From assembly GCF_900290235.1 (NCBI RefSeq), contig NZ_OLMK01000100.1, forward strand, positions 1 to 64,000: 64,000 nucleotides of DNA, given 5' to 3'. Positions 2,007 to 38,044 of this stretch are shown here, piece by piece; the stretch's first letter is position 1, and each line of letters starts with the position of its first letter. Position numbers and translations under genes: made by a program. Under the pieces are notes generated by a model, which had not been told where the DNA came from, did not search any database, and saw only the letters and a list, made by a program, of their open reading frames with translations. The DNA comes from Streptomyces sp. MA5143a. GTDB lineage: Bacteria > Actinomycetota > Actinomycetes > Streptomycetales > Streptomycetaceae.

Positions 2007-4739
2007 ATGCGTTTCCGGGTACTGGGGCCGGTGAGTCTGTCGCCCCGCACTCCCTCCGCCGCCAAACCGCGCGCCCTGCTCGCCACGCTGCTCGTGCAGG
2101 CCGGTGAAGTGGTCCCCGTGCACAGCCTGATCGACGAGCTGTGGGGGACGGAACCCCCGCGCACCGCGACCACCACCCTCCAGGTGTACGTCTCCCAGCT
2201 GCGCAAGGTCCTCGCCGAGGCCGGCGGCTCCGCGCACTCCGGTGAGCTGCTGACCCGCGCTCCCGGATACCTCCTCGCCGTTCCCGAGCGGGACTTCGAT
2301 CTGCCGTGCTTCGAACGGCTGCGGGCCGAGGGCCGCGCCGCCTACCAGGAGGGCGACTTCGGCCGCGCCTCCGGACTGCTGCACGAGGCGCTCGCCCTGT
2401 GGACGGGCCCCGCCCTGTCCGGGATCCCGCACGGGGTGCGGCTGGAGTCCGCCGCCATCCGGCTGGACGAGCTGCGGATGGAGGTCCTGGAGCAGCGGAT
2501 CGTCGCCGACCTGCGGCTGGGCCGCCACCAGGAGCTCGCAGGGGAACTGCTGGCCCTCGCCAACGAGCATCCGCTGCGGGAGACCCTGCACGGACACCTG
2601 ATGGTGGCGCTGTACCGGACGGGCCGCGGCTCCGACGCGCTGCGGGTGTACGGGCGGCTGCGCCACTCCCTGGTGGAGGAACTCGGCGTCGAGCCGAGCC
2701 CGGGTCTGTCCCGGCTGCACGAACGCGTCCTGCGCCGGGAACCCTCCCTGGACTGGCAGCCGCCCCGCACCGCGCGCCGCGCGAACGGCGACGCCCCGGA
2801 CGGCGCCGCCGGCTCACCGGGACGCCCGGCCGCTCCCCGGCGGGCGGCGGGACCCGCCGACGGGCCGCGGCCCCTGCCCGGCCCGCCCCCGGCGCTGCCC
2901 GCGGCGCCGCCCGGCTTCGTCGGCCGTGACGAGGAACTGGCGTACGCGGAACGGGCGTTGCGTGGTGGGGTCGGCCGGCCGGCGGTACGGGTGCTGGCCG
3001 TCTCCGGGCCCGCCGGTGTCGGCAAGACCGCGCTGGCGCTGCGGCTCGCGCACCGCACGGCGGACCTGTTCCCCGACGGCGGGCTGCTGCTCGGGCTGCG
3101 CGGGCCGCAGGGTCGTCCGCTGAGTGCCGCTCAGGCCGGCGCGGCCCTGCTGCGCCGGCTCACCGACGACGTCCCCGGCGTCCCGCTCACCGACCCGGAG
3201 GAGCTGACCGACCGGCTGCGGCGGGCCCTGCACGGGCGCCGGATGCTGCTCATCCTGGACGACGCCGCGTCCGAGCAGCAGATACGGCCGCTGCTCCAGG
3301 CCGTCACGGAGGGCTCGGTGATCCTCACCGGGCGCCGCCGGGCCGCCGCCCTCGACGGGGCGGAGCATCTGCGGCTGGACGCGGTGCGGCCGGAGGAGGC
3401 GGTGGAGCTGCTGCTCGCCGCCGGCGGCGAGCGGATGGCGCAGGACCCGGTGGCGGTCGCCGAGATCGCCCGGCTGTGCGGCTGCTTCCCCCTGGCGCTG
3501 CGGGTGGCCGCGGCGGCCCTGACGGCGCGCCCGCACACCACGCCCGCCGCGCTGGCGGGCCGGCTGCGCGACGAGCGGACCCGGCTCGGTGTGCTGCGCG
3601 AGGGCGACCTCGACCTGCGCTCCAGCCTGCTGACGGGCTACCAGGAGGCGGGGCCCGCGCTGCGGCGCGCGTTCCGGCTGCTGTCCCTGGCGCCGGCCCC
3701 CGACTTCTCGGGCTGGACCGTCGCGGCCCTGCTGGGCACCGGGCCGGCGGAGGCGGAGGAGACGGCCGAGGAACTGGTGCGGGCCCAGCTGTTGGAGGCC
3801 CGCACCGACGGCCGGTCCGTCCGCTACGGCTTCCACTCGCTGCTGCGGGTGCTGGCCACCGAACTGCGGGAGGCGGAGCCGGACGCCGCCCGGACCCGGC
3901 GGGAGGTCGTGGAGCGGCTGGGCCGGGCCTACGGGAGCCTCGCCCGGTACGCGGACCGGCGGCTCGCCCCCGGACGGGAGTGGCGGGCCCGGCCCGACGC
4001 CGGGCACACCGGCCACACCGGGCCGGACGCGGCCGCGATCGTCGGCGCGAGTCCGCTGGGATGGTTCCGCGAGGAGGCCACGGGCCTGGTGGAGACCGTA
4101 CGGCAGACGCACGCGGCGGGACTGTGGCCGCTGGTGTGGGACCTCGCGGGCAGCGCCGCCGGGTACTTCCACGCGCGCGCCGCGTGGGAGGAGTGGGAGG
4201 AGACCCACCGGCTCGCCCTGGACGCCGCGCGGCGGGCCCGGGACACCGAGGCCGAGGCGGCCGTCCAGTACGCGCTGGGCGACCTGGCCTGGCAGCGCCG
4301 CCAGGCCGACCGGGCGCTGCGCCACCACACCGCCGCCCAGCACGCGTTCGAGCTGGTCCGCGACCGGACCGGGGTGGCCCGCTGCCGGATCGGCGCGGCG
4401 GACGTTCTGCTCGGCCAGGGCCTGCTGGAACACGCCGCCCGGCGCTACGGGCGGGCGTTGGCGCTGTGCTCGGCCGAAGGGGACCTGCGGGGCGAGGTGG
4501 CCGCGCTGAAGGGGCTCGCCCTGGTCAACCTTCGGCGTGGCCGCGTGGACGTGGCCCGGCGGCAGCTGGAGCAGTGCGGGCGCACCGCGGAACGCCTCGG
4601 CGACCGCCGCTGGACGGAGTACGTCCGCCGCACCACGGCCCGCCTGGCCCCGGACCCCACCCACCGCCTCTCCCCCGTCGGCCACGCGGTCGAGGTGGGC
4701 CCCGGCATGTGGCTCCTGGGAACGGCCAAGGCCGCCTGA
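2007..4739 (+). CDS. AfsR-type SARP transcriptional activator with NB-ARC and TPR domains
   Basis: A 910-residue regulator. Residues 1-95 form the OmpR-like winged helix of SARPs (MRFRVLGPVSL, then LQVYVSQLRKVL). Residues about 96-245 are the bacterial transcriptional activator domain. A Pro/Ala-rich linker leads to an NB-ARC ATPase with a P-loop GPAGVGKTAL near residue 334 and LLILDDA near residue 415, then TPR-like helices from about 700. SARPs usually bind 11-bp-spaced heptamer repeats and activate a nearby cluster. The two 11-bp-spaced heptamers at 23115-23136, upstream of the first minus-strand biosynthetic gene, are a candidate target. AAGGAG precedes the ATG. Confidence 0.93.
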   Translation: MRFRVLGPVSLSPRTPSAAKPRALLATLLVQAGEVVPVHSLIDELWGTEPPRTATTTLQVYVSQLRKVLAEAGGSAHSGELLTRAPGYLLAVPERDFDLPCFERLRAEGRAAYQEGDFGRASGLLHEALALWTGPALSGIPHGVRLESAAIRLDELRMEVLEQRIVADLRLGRHQELAGELLALANEHPLRETLHGHLMVALYRTGRGSDALRVYGRLRHSLVEELGVEPSPGLSRLHERVLRREPSLDWQPPRTARRANGDAPDGAAGSPGRPAAPRRAAGPADGPRPLPGPPPALPAAPPGFVGRDEELAYAERALRGGVGRPAVRVLAVSGPAGVGKTALALRLAHRTADLFPDGGLLLGLRGPQGRPLSAAQAGAALLRRLTDDVPGVPLTDPEELTDRLRRALHGRRMLLILDDAASEQQIRPLLQAVTEGSVILTGRRRAAALDGAEHLRLDAVRPEEAVELLLAAGGERMAQDPVAVAEIARLCGCFPLALRVAAAALTARPHTTPAALAGRLRDERTRLGVLREGDLDLRSSLLTGYQEAGPALRRAFRLLSLAPAPDFSGWTVAALLGTGPAEAEETAEELVRAQLLEARTDGRSVRYGFHSLLRVLATELREAEPDAARTRREVVERLGRAYGSLARYADRRLAPGREWRARPDAGHTGHTGPDAAAIVGASPLGWFREEATGLVETVRQTHAAGLWPLVWDLAGSAAGYFHARAAWEEWEETHRLALDAARRARDTEAEAAVQYALGDLAWQRRQADRALRHHTAAQHAFELVRDRTGVARCRIGAADVLLGQGLLEHAARRYGRALALCSAEGDLRGEVAALKGLALVNLRRGRVDVARRQLEQCGRTAERLGDRRWTEYVRRTTARLAPDPTHRLSPVGHAVEVGPGMWLLGTAKAA

Positions 4740-4826
4740 GCCGGAAGGTACGCCGTGAGGTCGCCCCTGCGGGGGCGGCCTGACGGTGTTTCCGGCGGAA
4801 GCGGCGCGAGGCCGTCCCCGCAGGGA

Positions 4827-4992
4827 GCGAGGTGGGGTTGTCCCCGCCCCGCCGAAAGCGGCGCGTCCCTGACCGGGGCAGCGTGACTACGCCCCCGGCG
4901 AAGGGCCATGGCGTCGCCCCTGACGGGGAGCGACGTGAGCGTGTTGCTGGAGGAAGCGAGGTGGGGTTGTCCCCGCCCCGCCGAAAGCGGCG
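4827..4992. repeat. Exact 37-bp direct duplication (4827-4863 and 4956-4992)
   Basis: The two copies begin GCGAGGTGGGGTTGTCCCCG and end GCCGAAAGCGGCG, are identical over 37 bp, and start 129 bp apart. The intervening and flanking DNA contains further partial copies of TCGTCCCCG. The block looks like an older, scrambled relative of the regular array to its right. Confidence 0.8.
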
Positions 4993-5089
4993 TGAGGTCG
5001 TCCCCGCCGGGAACCGCGTGACGGCTCCCGGCGGGAGCACATGACGTCATCCTCGGCAGGAGCCGTACGGCCTGCTCCCCGGCGTGAAC

Positions 5090-5383
5090 CGCGAGACGTC
5101 GTCCCCGGTGTGGACCGTGTGACGTCGTCCCCGACGTAGGCGGCCGTGTGACGTCGTCCCCGGCGTAAGCCGCGTGACGTCGTCCCCGACGCAGGCCGCG
5201 TGACGTCGTCCCCGACGCAGGCGGCCGTGTGACGTCGTCCCCGACGCAGGCGGCCGCGTGACGTCGTCCCTGGTGTAGGCCGTGTGACTCGTCCCCGGCG
5301 TAAGCCGCGTGACGTCGTCCTCAACGTAGGCCGCGTGACGTCGTCCCCAACGTAGGCCGTGTGACGTCGTCCCCGGGGTCAGT
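5090..5383. repeat. Minisatellite of 11 units, 26 or 29 bp each
   Basis: Units begin at 5090, 5116, 5145, 5171, 5197, 5226, 5255, 5281, 5306, 5332 and 5358. Each contains the core GTGACGTCGTCCCCG or a one- to three-base variant; the 29-bp units carry an extra GGC, and the unit at 5281 is one base shorter (25 bp). GACGTC within the core is a perfect hexamer palindrome. Copies differ mainly in a 6-base variable part after the core. There are no unique spacers, so it is not a CRISPR array. Confidence 0.92.
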
Positions 5384-5524
5384 CGTTTGACGGTGGTGGC
5401 CGTGTCGGTCGGGCGGTCGTCGCCGGGGGGAGCCGCGTGACGTCCCGCACGCGGCTCCCGGACGGCCGGCGACGGCAGTGGCGGGGGGCCGGTTCTCCAC
5501 TCCGGTCCCCCGCGTGGCCGGCCG

Positions 5525-6559
5525 TCAGCCGGTGGCCCGCCCCTGGAGGGGACGGGCACCCCGGGTGCGGGCGTGCGCGCGGCGGGTGCGCAGCAGCTGC
5601 CGCCACTCCTCGGGGCTGAACCGGGCGGGGCGGGTGCGGCCGATGAAGTCGTGGAGCACCCCGAGGAATCGCTCCGGGTCCGTGTGGAACGGGAAGTGCC
5701 CGGCGTCCTCGAATATCTCCAGCCGGCTGCCCGGCATGGACACATGGCCGAGGCCGGCGTGCAGGGCCGGGACGACCATGTCGCGTCCGCCCCACACCAG
5801 CATCGTCGGCATGCCCTGCGTCAGATAGCAGCGGTCGAGCAGCGTGCCGACCTGGCCACGCCAGTCGACGACGGCCCGCAGGGTCCGCACGAACGCGCTG
5901 CGCGAACTCGCGTCCGGCAGGGCGTCCACCACCCGCAGCAGATCCGGCGCGTCCACCCCGAGCCCCGTGTTCAGGGTCTTCATGATCCGCACGAACATCT
6001 GCAACTGCCAGCGCACGGTGGGCAGTTGGAAGGCCGACAGCAGCAGTTCGGCGCCGGGTAGCGTGGCGGCCCGCAGCAGCGGGGAGACCTGGCGGCCGAT
6101 GCCGCCGCTGCCGACGAGGACCAGCCGCTCGGTGCGCTCGGGGAACTGGTAGGCGAACTGGGCGGCCACCGCGCCGCCGAGGGAGTGGCCGACGAGGGTG
6201 GCCCGCTCGATGCCCAGCGCGCTGAGCAGATCCCGCAGCCCGTTGGCGTACGCGCCCGGAGAGTAGTCGCCACGGGGCTTGGCGGACGCCCCGTGCCCGA
6301 GCAGGTCGGGGGCGAGGACCCGGTAGCGGGCGGCCAGGCCGGGGATGATGTCGGCCCAGGTCGCGGAGGAGTCGCCGATGCCGTGGATCAGCACCACCGC
6401 GGACTCGCCCTTGCCTGCCATGCGGTAGGCGAAGCGGTAGCCGTGCAGCTCACGGGTGCGGACGCGGATCTCGTTGCGGCCCACCGCCCGCGGCCTGGGC
6501 CGCCCCGGCTGGTGGCTGGGCCGGAACGGCGTGCGGGCGGTGAAGGGGTCGTCGGCCAT
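5525..6559 (-). CDS. Alpha/beta hydrolase
   Basis: A 344-residue soluble alpha/beta hydrolase. The oxyanion region VVLIHGIGDSS is near residue 56, the nucleophile elbow GHSLGG near residue 124, the acid is likely in VWGGRDMVVP near residue 258, and the His in EDAGHFPFH near residue 287. It closes the minus-strand biosynthetic series; its ribosome site AGGAGG lies inside the end of the small gene upstream, so the two are translationally coupled. In a tetronate pathway it could be an elimination enzyme, a type II thioesterase-like editing hydrolase or a lactone hydrolase. The N-terminal 30 residues are rich in Pro/Arg and not conserved-looking. Confidence 0.85.
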   Translation of the reverse strand: MADDPFTARTPFRPSHQPGRPRPRAVGRNEIRVRTRELHGYRFAYRMAGKGESAVVLIHGIGDSSATWADIIPGLAARYRVLAPDLLGHGASAKPRGDYSPGAYANGLRDLLSALGIERATLVGHSLGGAVAAQFAYQFPERTERLVLVGSGGIGRQVSPLLRAATLPGAELLLSAFQLPTVRWQLQMFVRIMKTLNTGLGVDAPDLLRVVDALPDASSRSAFVRTLRAVVDWRGQVGTLLDRCYLTQGMPTMLVWGGRDMVVPALHAGLGHVSMPGSRLEIFEDAGHFPFHTDPERFLGVLHDFIGRTRPARFSPEEWRQLLRTRRAHARTRGARPLQGRATG

Positions 6560-31083: not shown

Positions 31084-31143
<60 letters not shown>

Positions 31144-36023: not shown

Positions 36024-38044
36024 CAGCGGCTCCCTTCCGCGGCCGGCGGGCGGCCCGCGGCTGTGTCGGACAGGTCGTCCGGTGGCGTCCCGTGCGCCGG
36101 TATCCCGTCCAGCGGCATCGCATCAGGCGGTGCCTTGTCCGGCTGCGTCCCGCCCAGCGACGTCCCGTCGGCCGGAGTCCCGTCCAGCGGCGTCCCGCCG
36201 ACCGGAGTCCCGTCGAGCGACGTCCCGTCGGCCGGAGTCCCGTCGAGCGGCGTCCCGTCGCGCGGTGTCCCGTCCGGCTGGGCCGGAGCCGTGTCGGCCG
36301 TCCACCGGACCGCGCTGAGGGTCGCGCCGGCCTCGACCGCGGCGGGCGTCGCCGCGAGCAACGCGCGGGTGTACGGGTGGGTGACCGTGCCCCGGCGCAG
36401 GTCGGCGCCCGTCGTACGGTCGACGACCCGGCCGCCGTGGAGCACCAGGACGGTGTCGCAGAGCACGCCGACCACGCCGATGTCGTGCGAGATGAACAGC
36501 ATCGCCGTGCCGTGCTCGCGGTTGATGCGGCGGAACTGCCGCAGCACCTCCGCCTGGACGGTGACGTCGAGTGCCGTGGTCGGCTCGTCGGCGATGAGGA
36601 GACGCGGGTTCGTCGTCATCGCGGAGGCGATCGAGGCACGCTGGAGCATGCCGCCGCTCAGCTCGTGCGGGTGCTGGCGCAGCCGCCGCTCGGGCTCGGT
36701 GACATGGATGTCGGCGAGGGCGCGGGCCATGTCCCGCCGGGCCTGACGACGGGATGTCCCGAGGTGCGTCCGGGCCACCTCGGTGAGCTGGGCGCCGAGC
36801 CGCAGCGCGGGGTTGAACGTGCCGATCGGGTCCTGGTAGACGATGCCGATCTCGGTGGCGAGGCGCCGGCCCGGCGGTGTTCCGAGCAGGTCGAGGTCAC
36901 CGAGGGCGAGGCGGGACGCGTTCGCCCGGACCCCCTCGGGGAGCAGGCCCGCGACCGCCATGGCGATGGTCGACTTGCCCGAGCCGGACTCCCCGACGAG
37001 GCCGACGATCCGCCCGGCGCCGATGGTGAACGACACGTCGTCGACGAGTGTCCGGTCACCGGCCCGCACGGTCAGCCCGTCGACGGTCAGCAGACCGTCC
37101 GGCTCCGTGCCGGCCGTGGCCCCCGCACCGCCCGGTGCCCGGGGCGCGCGAGCCTCCTTCGCCGGGGTGGCCGGTACCGCCGCGTCCGCCGCCCCGGTCG
37201 CCGCGGGCGCCGTGCCGCGGGTGCGCGGGTCGACGAGCGAGGCCACGCCGTCCCCGAGGAGCATGGCGCCCACACCGGTGACGATGAGCATGATCGACGG
37301 GGCGAGGACGACCGACGGCTGGGCGAAGATCGACGGCAGCGCCTCGTTGAGCAGCCGGCCCCAGTCGTACTGCGGGCTCTGCACGCCGAGGCCGACGAAG
37401 GACAGGCTGCTGATGTCGAGCAGGGACAGGGTGAAGCTGGAGCTGAGGAGCACCAGCAGCGGCCCGCTGATGTTCGGCAGGACGTGCCGGGTCAGGATGC
37501 GCGGGCCGGGAACGCCGAGCAGCCGCGCGGTGAGCACGTAGTCCTTGTCCGCGACGGTCGCGGCGAGGTTCGCCGTCAGCCGGGCGAACCCGGGGATGCC
37601 GGCGACGGCGATGGCGACGATCGCGGACCCCGTCCCCGGTCCGAGCACCGCCGCGATGACGAGGGCGAGCACGAGCGAGGGGAACGCCACCGCCGAATCG
37701 ATGAGCCGCAGACAGGTCTCGCGCAGCCATCGGGGGGCCAGGTGGACGAGCGCGCCGATCGCGACGCCGACGACGAACGAGGCGGCGGTGGCGGCGGCGG
37801 CCATGAGCAGGGTGAGGCGGGTCGCGACGAGGGCCCGGGCGAGGACGTCACGGCCGAAGGCGTCGGTGCCGAGGAGGTGTTCGGCTCCGGGCCCCAGCCG
37901 GGCGTCGTCGGTGAGGGTCTCGGCGGAACCGCTCAGCAGCGGCGGGGCCACGAGGGCCACGACGACGAGCAGTCCGAGGATCACGGCGCCGGCCAGCAGC
38001 GACGGGTTGCGGCGCCACCGGCGCGCGGTCGTGTCAGTGGCCAC
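36023..38044 (-). CDS. ABC transporter permease-ATPase fusion (DppC-DppD type) with repeat tail
   Basis: A 673-residue protein joining two transporter subunits. Residues 1-290 are a DppC-like permease with about six membrane helices (HLLGTDAFGRDVLARAL, the EAA-like loop GVPGPRILTRHVLPNI). Residues about 315-560 are an ATPase (GESGSGKSTIA, LSGGMLQRASIA, LLIADEPTTALD, HPYTRALL). The last about 85 residues are a tail of five-residue repeats of the form DGTPx, encoded by 15-bp DNA repeats (36085-36285). Permease and ATPase fused in one chain implies fixed 1:1 stoichiometry. The start overlaps the DppB-like gene by 11 bp. Confidence 0.92.
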   Translation of the reverse strand: MATDTTARRWRRNPSLLAGAVILGLLVVVALVAPPLLSGSAETLTDDARLGPGAEHLLGTDAFGRDVLARALVATRLTLLMAAAATAASFVVGVAIGALVHLAPRWLRETCLRLIDSAVAFPSLVLALVIAAVLGPGTGSAIVAIAVAGIPGFARLTANLAATVADKDYVLTARLLGVPGPRILTRHVLPNISGPLLVLLSSSFTLSLLDISSLSFVGLGVQSPQYDWGRLLNEALPSIFAQPSVVLAPSIMLIVTGVGAMLLGDGVASLVDPRTRGTAPAATGAADAAVPATPAKEARAPRAPGGAGATAGTEPDGLLTVDGLTVRAGDRTLVDDVSFTIGAGRIVGLVGESGSGKSTIAMAVAGLLPEGVRANASRLALGDLDLLGTPPGRRLATEIGIVYQDPIGTFNPALRLGAQLTEVARTHLGTSRRQARRDMARALADIHVTEPERRLRQHPHELSGGMLQRASIASAMTTNPRLLIADEPTTALDVTVQAEVLRQFRRINREHGTAMLFISHDIGVVGVLCDTVLVLHGGRVVDRTTGADLRRGTVTHPYTRALLAATPAAVEAGATLSAVRWTADTAPAQPDGTPRDGTPLDGTPADGTSLDGTPVGGTPLDGTPADGTSLGGTQPDKAPPDAMPLDGIPAHGTPPDDLSDTAAGRPPAAEGSR
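36085..36285. repeat. 15-bp in-frame repeats encoding a DGTPx tail
   Basis: On the + strand the word CGTCCCGTC recurs every 15 bp with variable flanks, about 13 times. The period keeps the frame of the fused transporter gene on the minus strand and produces a charged, Pro/Thr-rich tail at its C-terminus. Confidence 0.85.

Follow-up and report, generated by a model that had tools for sequence, protein, structure and literature searches.

A fast-turnover minisatellite, probably seeded by a gene end, between a SARP regulator gene and a biosynthetic operon in Streptomyces

Does a regular tandem repeat at the end of a biosynthetic operon carry a selected signal, or does it reflect the turnover of the repeat itself? 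This question is raised by an array in the genome of Streptomyces sp. MA5143a (9.81 Mb, 191 contigs), located in a stretch of 64,000 nt that was analyzed as a whole and is referred to here as the window (G+C 68–78%). The left neighbor of the array is a gene for a SARP-family regulator (2007–4739, plus strand; BTAD, Trans_reg_C, NB-ARC, and TPR domains by Pfam), before which lie genes for an AfsA-domain protein and a ferredoxin. The right neighbor encodes an alpha/beta hydrolase (5525–6559, minus strand; Pfam) and is the last gene of a minus-strand biosynthetic operon, which also encodes an FrsA-like esterase, a phosphopantetheinyl transferase, a 2-oxoacid dehydrogenase acyltransferase-domain protein, a KAS III-like enzyme, a KS-AT-ACP polyketide synthase, an ACP, and an acyl-CoA dehydrogenase. 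The SARP stop codon is at 4739, and the gap to the hydrolase gene is convergent. That the array sits at the convergent operon end, as a first-pass annotation had read from the sequence, agrees with the Pfam gene content and gene orientation.

TRF places the array at 5089–5376 with a period of 26, 10.7 copies, 83% matches, and a score of 325; an alternative period of 55 for the same interval scores 341, and a longer array at 4990–5376 is also called. The array consists of 11 units, starting at 5093, 5119, 5148, 5174, 5200, 5229, 5258, 5284, 5309, 5335, and 5361. Ten of these starts come from the unit listing, and that at 5284, which fell under its cut-off and has lost one G of the core (a 1-nt deletion), was taken from the sequence itself. 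The units at 5119, 5200, and 5229 are 29 nt long owing to a 3-nt GGC insert, and the others are of the 26-nt type. The coordinates and unit description in the first-pass annotation were accurate. The self-match of 5089–5376 at lag 26 is 0.668, far above chance, since 200 dinucleotide shuffles reach 0.437 at most. Units are contiguous and head-to-tail, unique spacers are absent, and the unit length lies in the range of roughly 10–100 nt that is typical of minisatellites. Because the periods of 26 and 29 nt are not divisible by three, the array is not a coding repeat.

The first-pass annotation had missed that the repeat extends beyond this block. At 4740–5085, the lag-26 self-match is 0.447 versus a shuffle maximum of 0.421 (200 shuffles), a decayed 26-nt periodicity, and a unit matrix (described below) finds 23 copies spread over the SARP-hydrolase gap from offset 6 onward. 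The gap is occupied from 4740 to ~5427 by one extended 26-nt array, largely decayed, of which the block of 11 units is the youngest part. Three parts, none of them assigned to a strand, can be distinguished. Older, diverged copies of the unit lie directly after the SARP stop codon (4740–5088; lag-26, matrix, and TRF), followed by the youngest and most homogeneous 26/29-nt block (5089–5376; TRF, unit listing, and autocorrelation) and by ragged last units that lead from the array to a conserved flank (5377–5427; sequence and five-species alignment).

The same junction was then compared among relatives. A hydrolase homologue (E ≤ 1e-60) is present in 87 of 392 genomes of the genus, the source genome counted; the 87 loci inspected came from two collections (7 from the first and 80 from the second), and four genomes occur in both. 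A SARP gene faces the hydrolase gene across a measurable gap at 22 of the 87 loci, which represent 18 distinct genomes besides the window when L077/L085, L078/L087, L079/L089, and L080/L104 are each treated as a single genome. TRF finds arrays in the gaps of six of the 18. Units of 26 to 28 nt are present in S. ossamyceticus, S. neyagawaensis, S. torulosus, and strain HM190; the gap of SID12488 holds a 17-nt unit and that of S. lacrimifluminis 6-nt and 25-nt units, and these last two arrays are unrelated to the 26-nt family. No array was found by TRF in 11 of the 18 gaps, one of which (L100) contains a masked run of N, and a further gap (L099, 49 nt) is too short for TRF. The gaps without an array include those of S. 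scabiei and S. stelliscabiei, with lengths of 141 and 132 nt as counted from the last aligned SARP codon. Identity of the hydrolase DNA to the window is 97.7% in S. torulosus, 97.0% in S. ossamyceticus, 96.5% in S. neyagawaensis, and 94.8% in HM190; the hydrolase DNA of S. scabiei and S. stelliscabiei is ~90% identical. The last 112–115 nt of the gap are 96.4% identical to S. ossamyceticus and 90.4% to HM190. Since the HM190 sequence is recorded as a complete chromosome, short-read assembly artefacts alone do not account for the arrays. In S. albipurpureus (L080:4936-7831), the SARP-hydrolase gap measures 2.9 kb and seemingly holds two extra genes, judged by eye to be one alpha/beta hydrolase-like and one transporter-like frame.

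Within the 26-nt family, unit and copy number differ between close relatives (between species, with one genome each), as in a VNTR. The S. ossamyceticus array has 18 copies of a 27-nt unit with blocks of 79 and 105 nt, that of S. neyagawaensis a 26-nt unit in blocks of 102/128 nt, that of S. torulosus 3.1 copies of a 101-nt unit, and that of HM190 9.5 copies of a 28-nt unit. The best mean 26-mer match falls within the same species in all five rows of the comparison (0.777–0.906), as against 0.602–0.795 between species and 0.592–0.640 for a shuffled baseline. Matches of HM190 units to other species are at this baseline, and the HM190 array may either have turned over completely or have expanded separately. 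Units are thus rapidly replaced while the flanking genes remain 95–98% identical.

The exact 15-nt core GTGACGTCGTCCCCG occurs six times in the window array, whereas S. neyagawaensis and S. torulosus have one copy apiece; it is absent from the loci of S. ossamyceticus, HM190, SID12488, S. lacrimifluminis, S. scabiei, and S. stelliscabiei. The single copy in S. torulosus and S. neyagawaensis corresponds in the alignment to the final unit of the window array, beside the conserved flank, which suggests that the 11 copies arose when one existing unit expanded in this lineage. This distribution supports a recent expansion, one of several explanations offered in the first-pass annotation. Among the 11 units, 25 of 28 changes are transitions. 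Neighboring units are not significantly more similar than in shuffled order (1877 of 20,000 orders as low); this lack of a one-unit slippage signature indicates that block-wise events are needed.

The origin of the unit was examined with a 26-column matrix derived from 67 units across the five species. The final 115 nt of every gap were left out, only two of the 67 units came from HM190, and the matrix was seeded with its consensus string GGGAGCCGCGTGACGTCGTCCCCGGC, so the register was chosen by hand. When both strands were scanned, the SARP stop codon, with its TGA in register, ranked first in SID12488 (of 22014 positions), S. lacrimifluminis (22014), and S. stelliscabiei (21972), and the stop site of S. 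scabiei ranked 74th of 21972. Of the four relatives closest to the array clade but outside it, three thus have the site as their best match, although these three top ranks stem from two pairs related by identity and are not fully independent. Farther away, at nine junctions, the SARP stop site drops to ranks between 382 and 8527 and does not score, and the seed is therefore seen only in the nearest relatives. It is very unlikely that the stop-codon match arose by chance. To judge from these sequences, the repeat probably began as a tandem duplication of the SARP gene end; the reverse direction is also possible, with the gene tail acquired from an array that has since been deleted.

We propose that ~26 nt across the end of the SARP gene (the last codons, the TGA, and ~13 nt beyond) would have been duplicated in tandem, presumably in an ancestor shared by a small Streptomyces clade. 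Slippage during replication or unequal recombination could then have gained, lost, and homogenized single units and blocks of units, so that at one shared place each species would have a unit variant and a block period specific to it. In the source genome, the unit beside the right-hand flank may recently have expanded to 11 copies. The exact unit sequence would have no selected function, and the array would be tolerated in an untranslated convergent gap. Taken together, we regard it as likely that the array is a locus-specific, fast-turnover minisatellite that was seeded by a gene end and has no sequence-specific function.

The gap also contains conserved structures outside the array. A hairpin with a perfect 12-bp stem and an 8-nt loop (GGGAGCCGCGTG acgtcccg CACGCGGCTCCC) is located at 5428–5459 (no strand assigned; stem search, alignment, and fold). 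Its stem is unchanged in all five array-bearing species of the 26-nt family and ends 66 nt from the hydrolase stop. A second hairpin at 5481–5513 (no strand assigned) adjoins the hydrolase stop codon and is indicated by a conserved block and by the fold of 5420–5524 on both strands. Based on predicted structure and position near a CDS end, the stable, GC-rich 5428–5459 hairpin is a probable terminator for one or both convergent transcripts and that at 5481–5513 a probable terminator of the minus-strand operon; both would end transcription there. No U-rich tract follows the 5428–5459 stem in a terminator scan, and a promoter/terminator scan of the region returned nothing on either strand. According to the excerpted text of PMC12207403, Streptomyces terminators are long GC-rich hairpins, often with weak U tracts, at a median distance of 66–76 nt from the CDS, and the conserved, U-poor junction hairpins resemble them to that extent. 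Stems of 16 and 15 bp with another sequence lie close to the hydrolase end in S. scabiei and S. stelliscabiei by stem search, and for S. scabiei the fold shows it too. The 5′ arm and loop start of the 5428–5459 hairpin resemble the repeat unit, and therefore the unit and the terminator may share history. The first-pass annotation had also suggested a boundary element; a boundary or terminator role is possible at the level of the junction, with the two conserved hairpins rather than the repeats as candidates.

Could the repeats themselves be the functional element? If a regulator, a nucleoid protein, or a boundary factor recognized the GACGTC core, eleven near-identical cores spaced by ~2.5 helical turns would be a suitable arrangement, and selection on such binding sites was among the suggestions of the first-pass annotation. 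The conserved core and variable part that it described are marginally distinct in the window array, where 6 minority letters fall in the 15 core columns and 23 in the remaining 11 (918 of 20,000 column permutations as extreme, the choice of window allowed for), but the split is not seen in sister arrays: in 44 sister-species units, core columns carry ~0.99 bits and the rest ~0.93 (hand-averaged), which is about equal. The core is single or absent in all eight relatives compared, sisters with near-identical flanking genes have different units, and the array lies 3′ of both genes and not at a promoter. Its lack in S. scabiei and S. stelliscabiei comes close to the absence from relatives with identical flanks that the first-pass annotation had itself named as counter-evidence. 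A search of the 9.8-Mb genome, which it had recommended, found seven exact copies of the 14-mer core, six of them in the array. We therefore consider repeated binding sites highly unlikely. A conserved-looking core within one tandem array is no evidence of selection, because homogenization makes the copies alike without it. The lone outside copy, on contig C74, sits in a stretch that by eye resembles repetitive coding sequence.

Alternatively, the repeats could act as a multi-hairpin bidirectional terminator or insulator that halts transcription both ways, with hairpin-forming ability selected instead of sequence. The unit-like arm of the conserved hairpin, the resemblance to known Streptomyces terminators noted above, and internal hairpins with 9- to 11-bp stems in several arrays are in line with this, as is a roughly twofold enrichment of arrays in convergent gaps (10 of 30, P = 0.04, 1.26-Mb sample), although the enrichment is weak and derives from a crude gene caller. 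Against it, tandem copies of nine consensus units show no gain in folding over copies of circularly shuffled units, whichever strand or species is taken (18 tests; lowest fraction, 0.07). In addition, the junctions of S. scabiei and S. stelliscabiei lack an array yet keep a strong hairpin. The interval 5080–5460 does fold better than plain shuffles (z −3.5 and −2.3), but this control destroys the repeats and the interval includes the conserved hairpin; folding beyond composition was rejected for the array, as the effect is gone once the unit is shuffled and then repeated. Since hairpins and repeats recur at the junction, this explanation keeps a small probability, and on balance we judge it unlikely. 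A related view is that the junction is selected as a repeat-filled, hairpin-rich spacer, in which read-through between the SARP gene and the operon is tuned by array length or transcript-end structure and not by sequence. The origin of three mutually unrelated array types (26-, 17-, and 6-nt) at one junction in one small clade would point to such tuning, which we nevertheless find quite improbable. It is hardly credible that the array is a relic of another repeat class, namely a CRISPR array, a MIRU/REP-like mobile or dispersed element, or a riboswitch-like RNA. A CRISPR array was ruled out by the contiguous, spacer-free units and a dispersed MIRU/REP-like family by the restriction of the unit to one locus: all three own-genome matches of the array query are at the array, and the older part (the 4740–5088 side) matches only itself. 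The array query has matches in 14 of 61 genomes including its own, the others being short and weak (E 5e-5 to 1e-3). What favors an RNA element is a minus-strand match to Guanidine-II at 4808–4849 (30.1 bits, gathering score 32), but the only sequence 3′ of it is antisense to the SARP gene, which leaves the match without a gene to control. The Rfam scan of the region gave five sub-threshold matches and none at the gathering score, and six related loci likewise have none at that score; the Guanidine-II riboswitch was accordingly rejected, also for its weaker match (26.4 bits). The two Guanidine-II matches, at 4808–4849 and 4962–5009 on the minus strand, fall within the decayed repeats and are probably chance likenesses of GC-rich hairpins.

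To place the minisatellite in the context of its genome, 1.263 Mb of the source genome (the window and 60 further stretches) were surveyed with a simple codon-usage gene caller and cut-offs of period ≥10 and TRF score ≥100. Besides 30 classified intergenic arrays, the survey yielded one at the edge of a stretch and 30 within coding sequence. The window array is second by score among the intergenic ones. Convergent gaps as a class make up 19% of intergenic bases and hold 10 of the 30. Arrays of this kind are thus nothing unusual in the source genome and are mildly over-represented in convergent gaps. Two other repeats were noted in the window: a 15/30/45/60-nt tandem repeat at 36137–36278 (TRF score up to 209), which perhaps lies within coding sequence because its periods are divisible by three, and a hexanucleotide GTCGCT at 31084–31142 (9.8 copies, 98% matches by TRF).

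Concerted evolution with higher-order repeats is a feature of eukaryotic satellites. The window array is like them in its species-specific homogenization and multi-unit blocks, and unlike them in that it spans a few hundred bases at a single bacterial locus. Mycobacterial MIRUs are intergenic direct repeats near gene ends. They share this arrangement with the window unit but are scattered over 41 locations (PMC2734929, excerpt), whereas the window unit is confined to one locus. As far as the excerpted text of the same paper goes, the rnc-fpg1 repeats of M. tuberculosis are similar in having units of tens of bases in a single intergenic gap, an array that begins shortly after a stop codon, and one clade with the array and relatives without it, the gap of the relatives being a few bases long at rnc-fpg1. 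They differ in that the window gap is convergent and not 5′ of a gene start and in that the window unit is replaced between sisters. Borg tandem repeats, as described in the excerpted part of PMC9879509, also vary or are missing among close relatives whose flanks are conserved, may begin within the end of an ORF, and are flanked by partial repeats; their units are perfect and A-enriched, in contrast to the imperfect, GC-rich, and decayed units of the window. A table row in the excerpt of PMC6749651 lists 38 satellites for S. coelicolor, and among open-access titles and abstract beginnings no report of Streptomyces intergenic minisatellites of the window type was found. The locus may be a well-resolved natural case of a bacterial minisatellite that starts from the stop-codon segment of a gene. 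The array could serve as a marker for strain typing or as a gauge of how fast slippage proceeds in Streptomyces.

As control loci, three further intergenic arrays from the source genome were compared with S. ossamyceticus. The 21-nt array at C74:150472 has kept its period in S. ossamyceticus, with ~5 copies in both genomes and 92% identity across the region. At the approximately aligned place of the 30-nt array at C61:286432, S. ossamyceticus has a 15-nt array with other letters. The third is a larger convergent-gap array on C61 at ~311.2–311.9 kb (L179:11150-11870) with an 18-nt unit, ~35 copies, and a 194-nt block, and its S. ossamyceticus counterpart, at the matching contig end, is a 17-nt array with a different unit. 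Unit turnover is thus neither unique to the window nor universal, and three loci are too few for more. A dispersed repeat of ~66 nt lies at C61 ~285500–285566 (L178:5500-5566); three relatives each contain dozens of matches to it, which frequently form inverted pairs spaced roughly 50–150 nt apart. On its minus strand, the repeat carries a GGGGCGCGGGGAACTGCGCGAA-like stretch, and a near-identical one is present in the SARP-hydrolase gap of L098.
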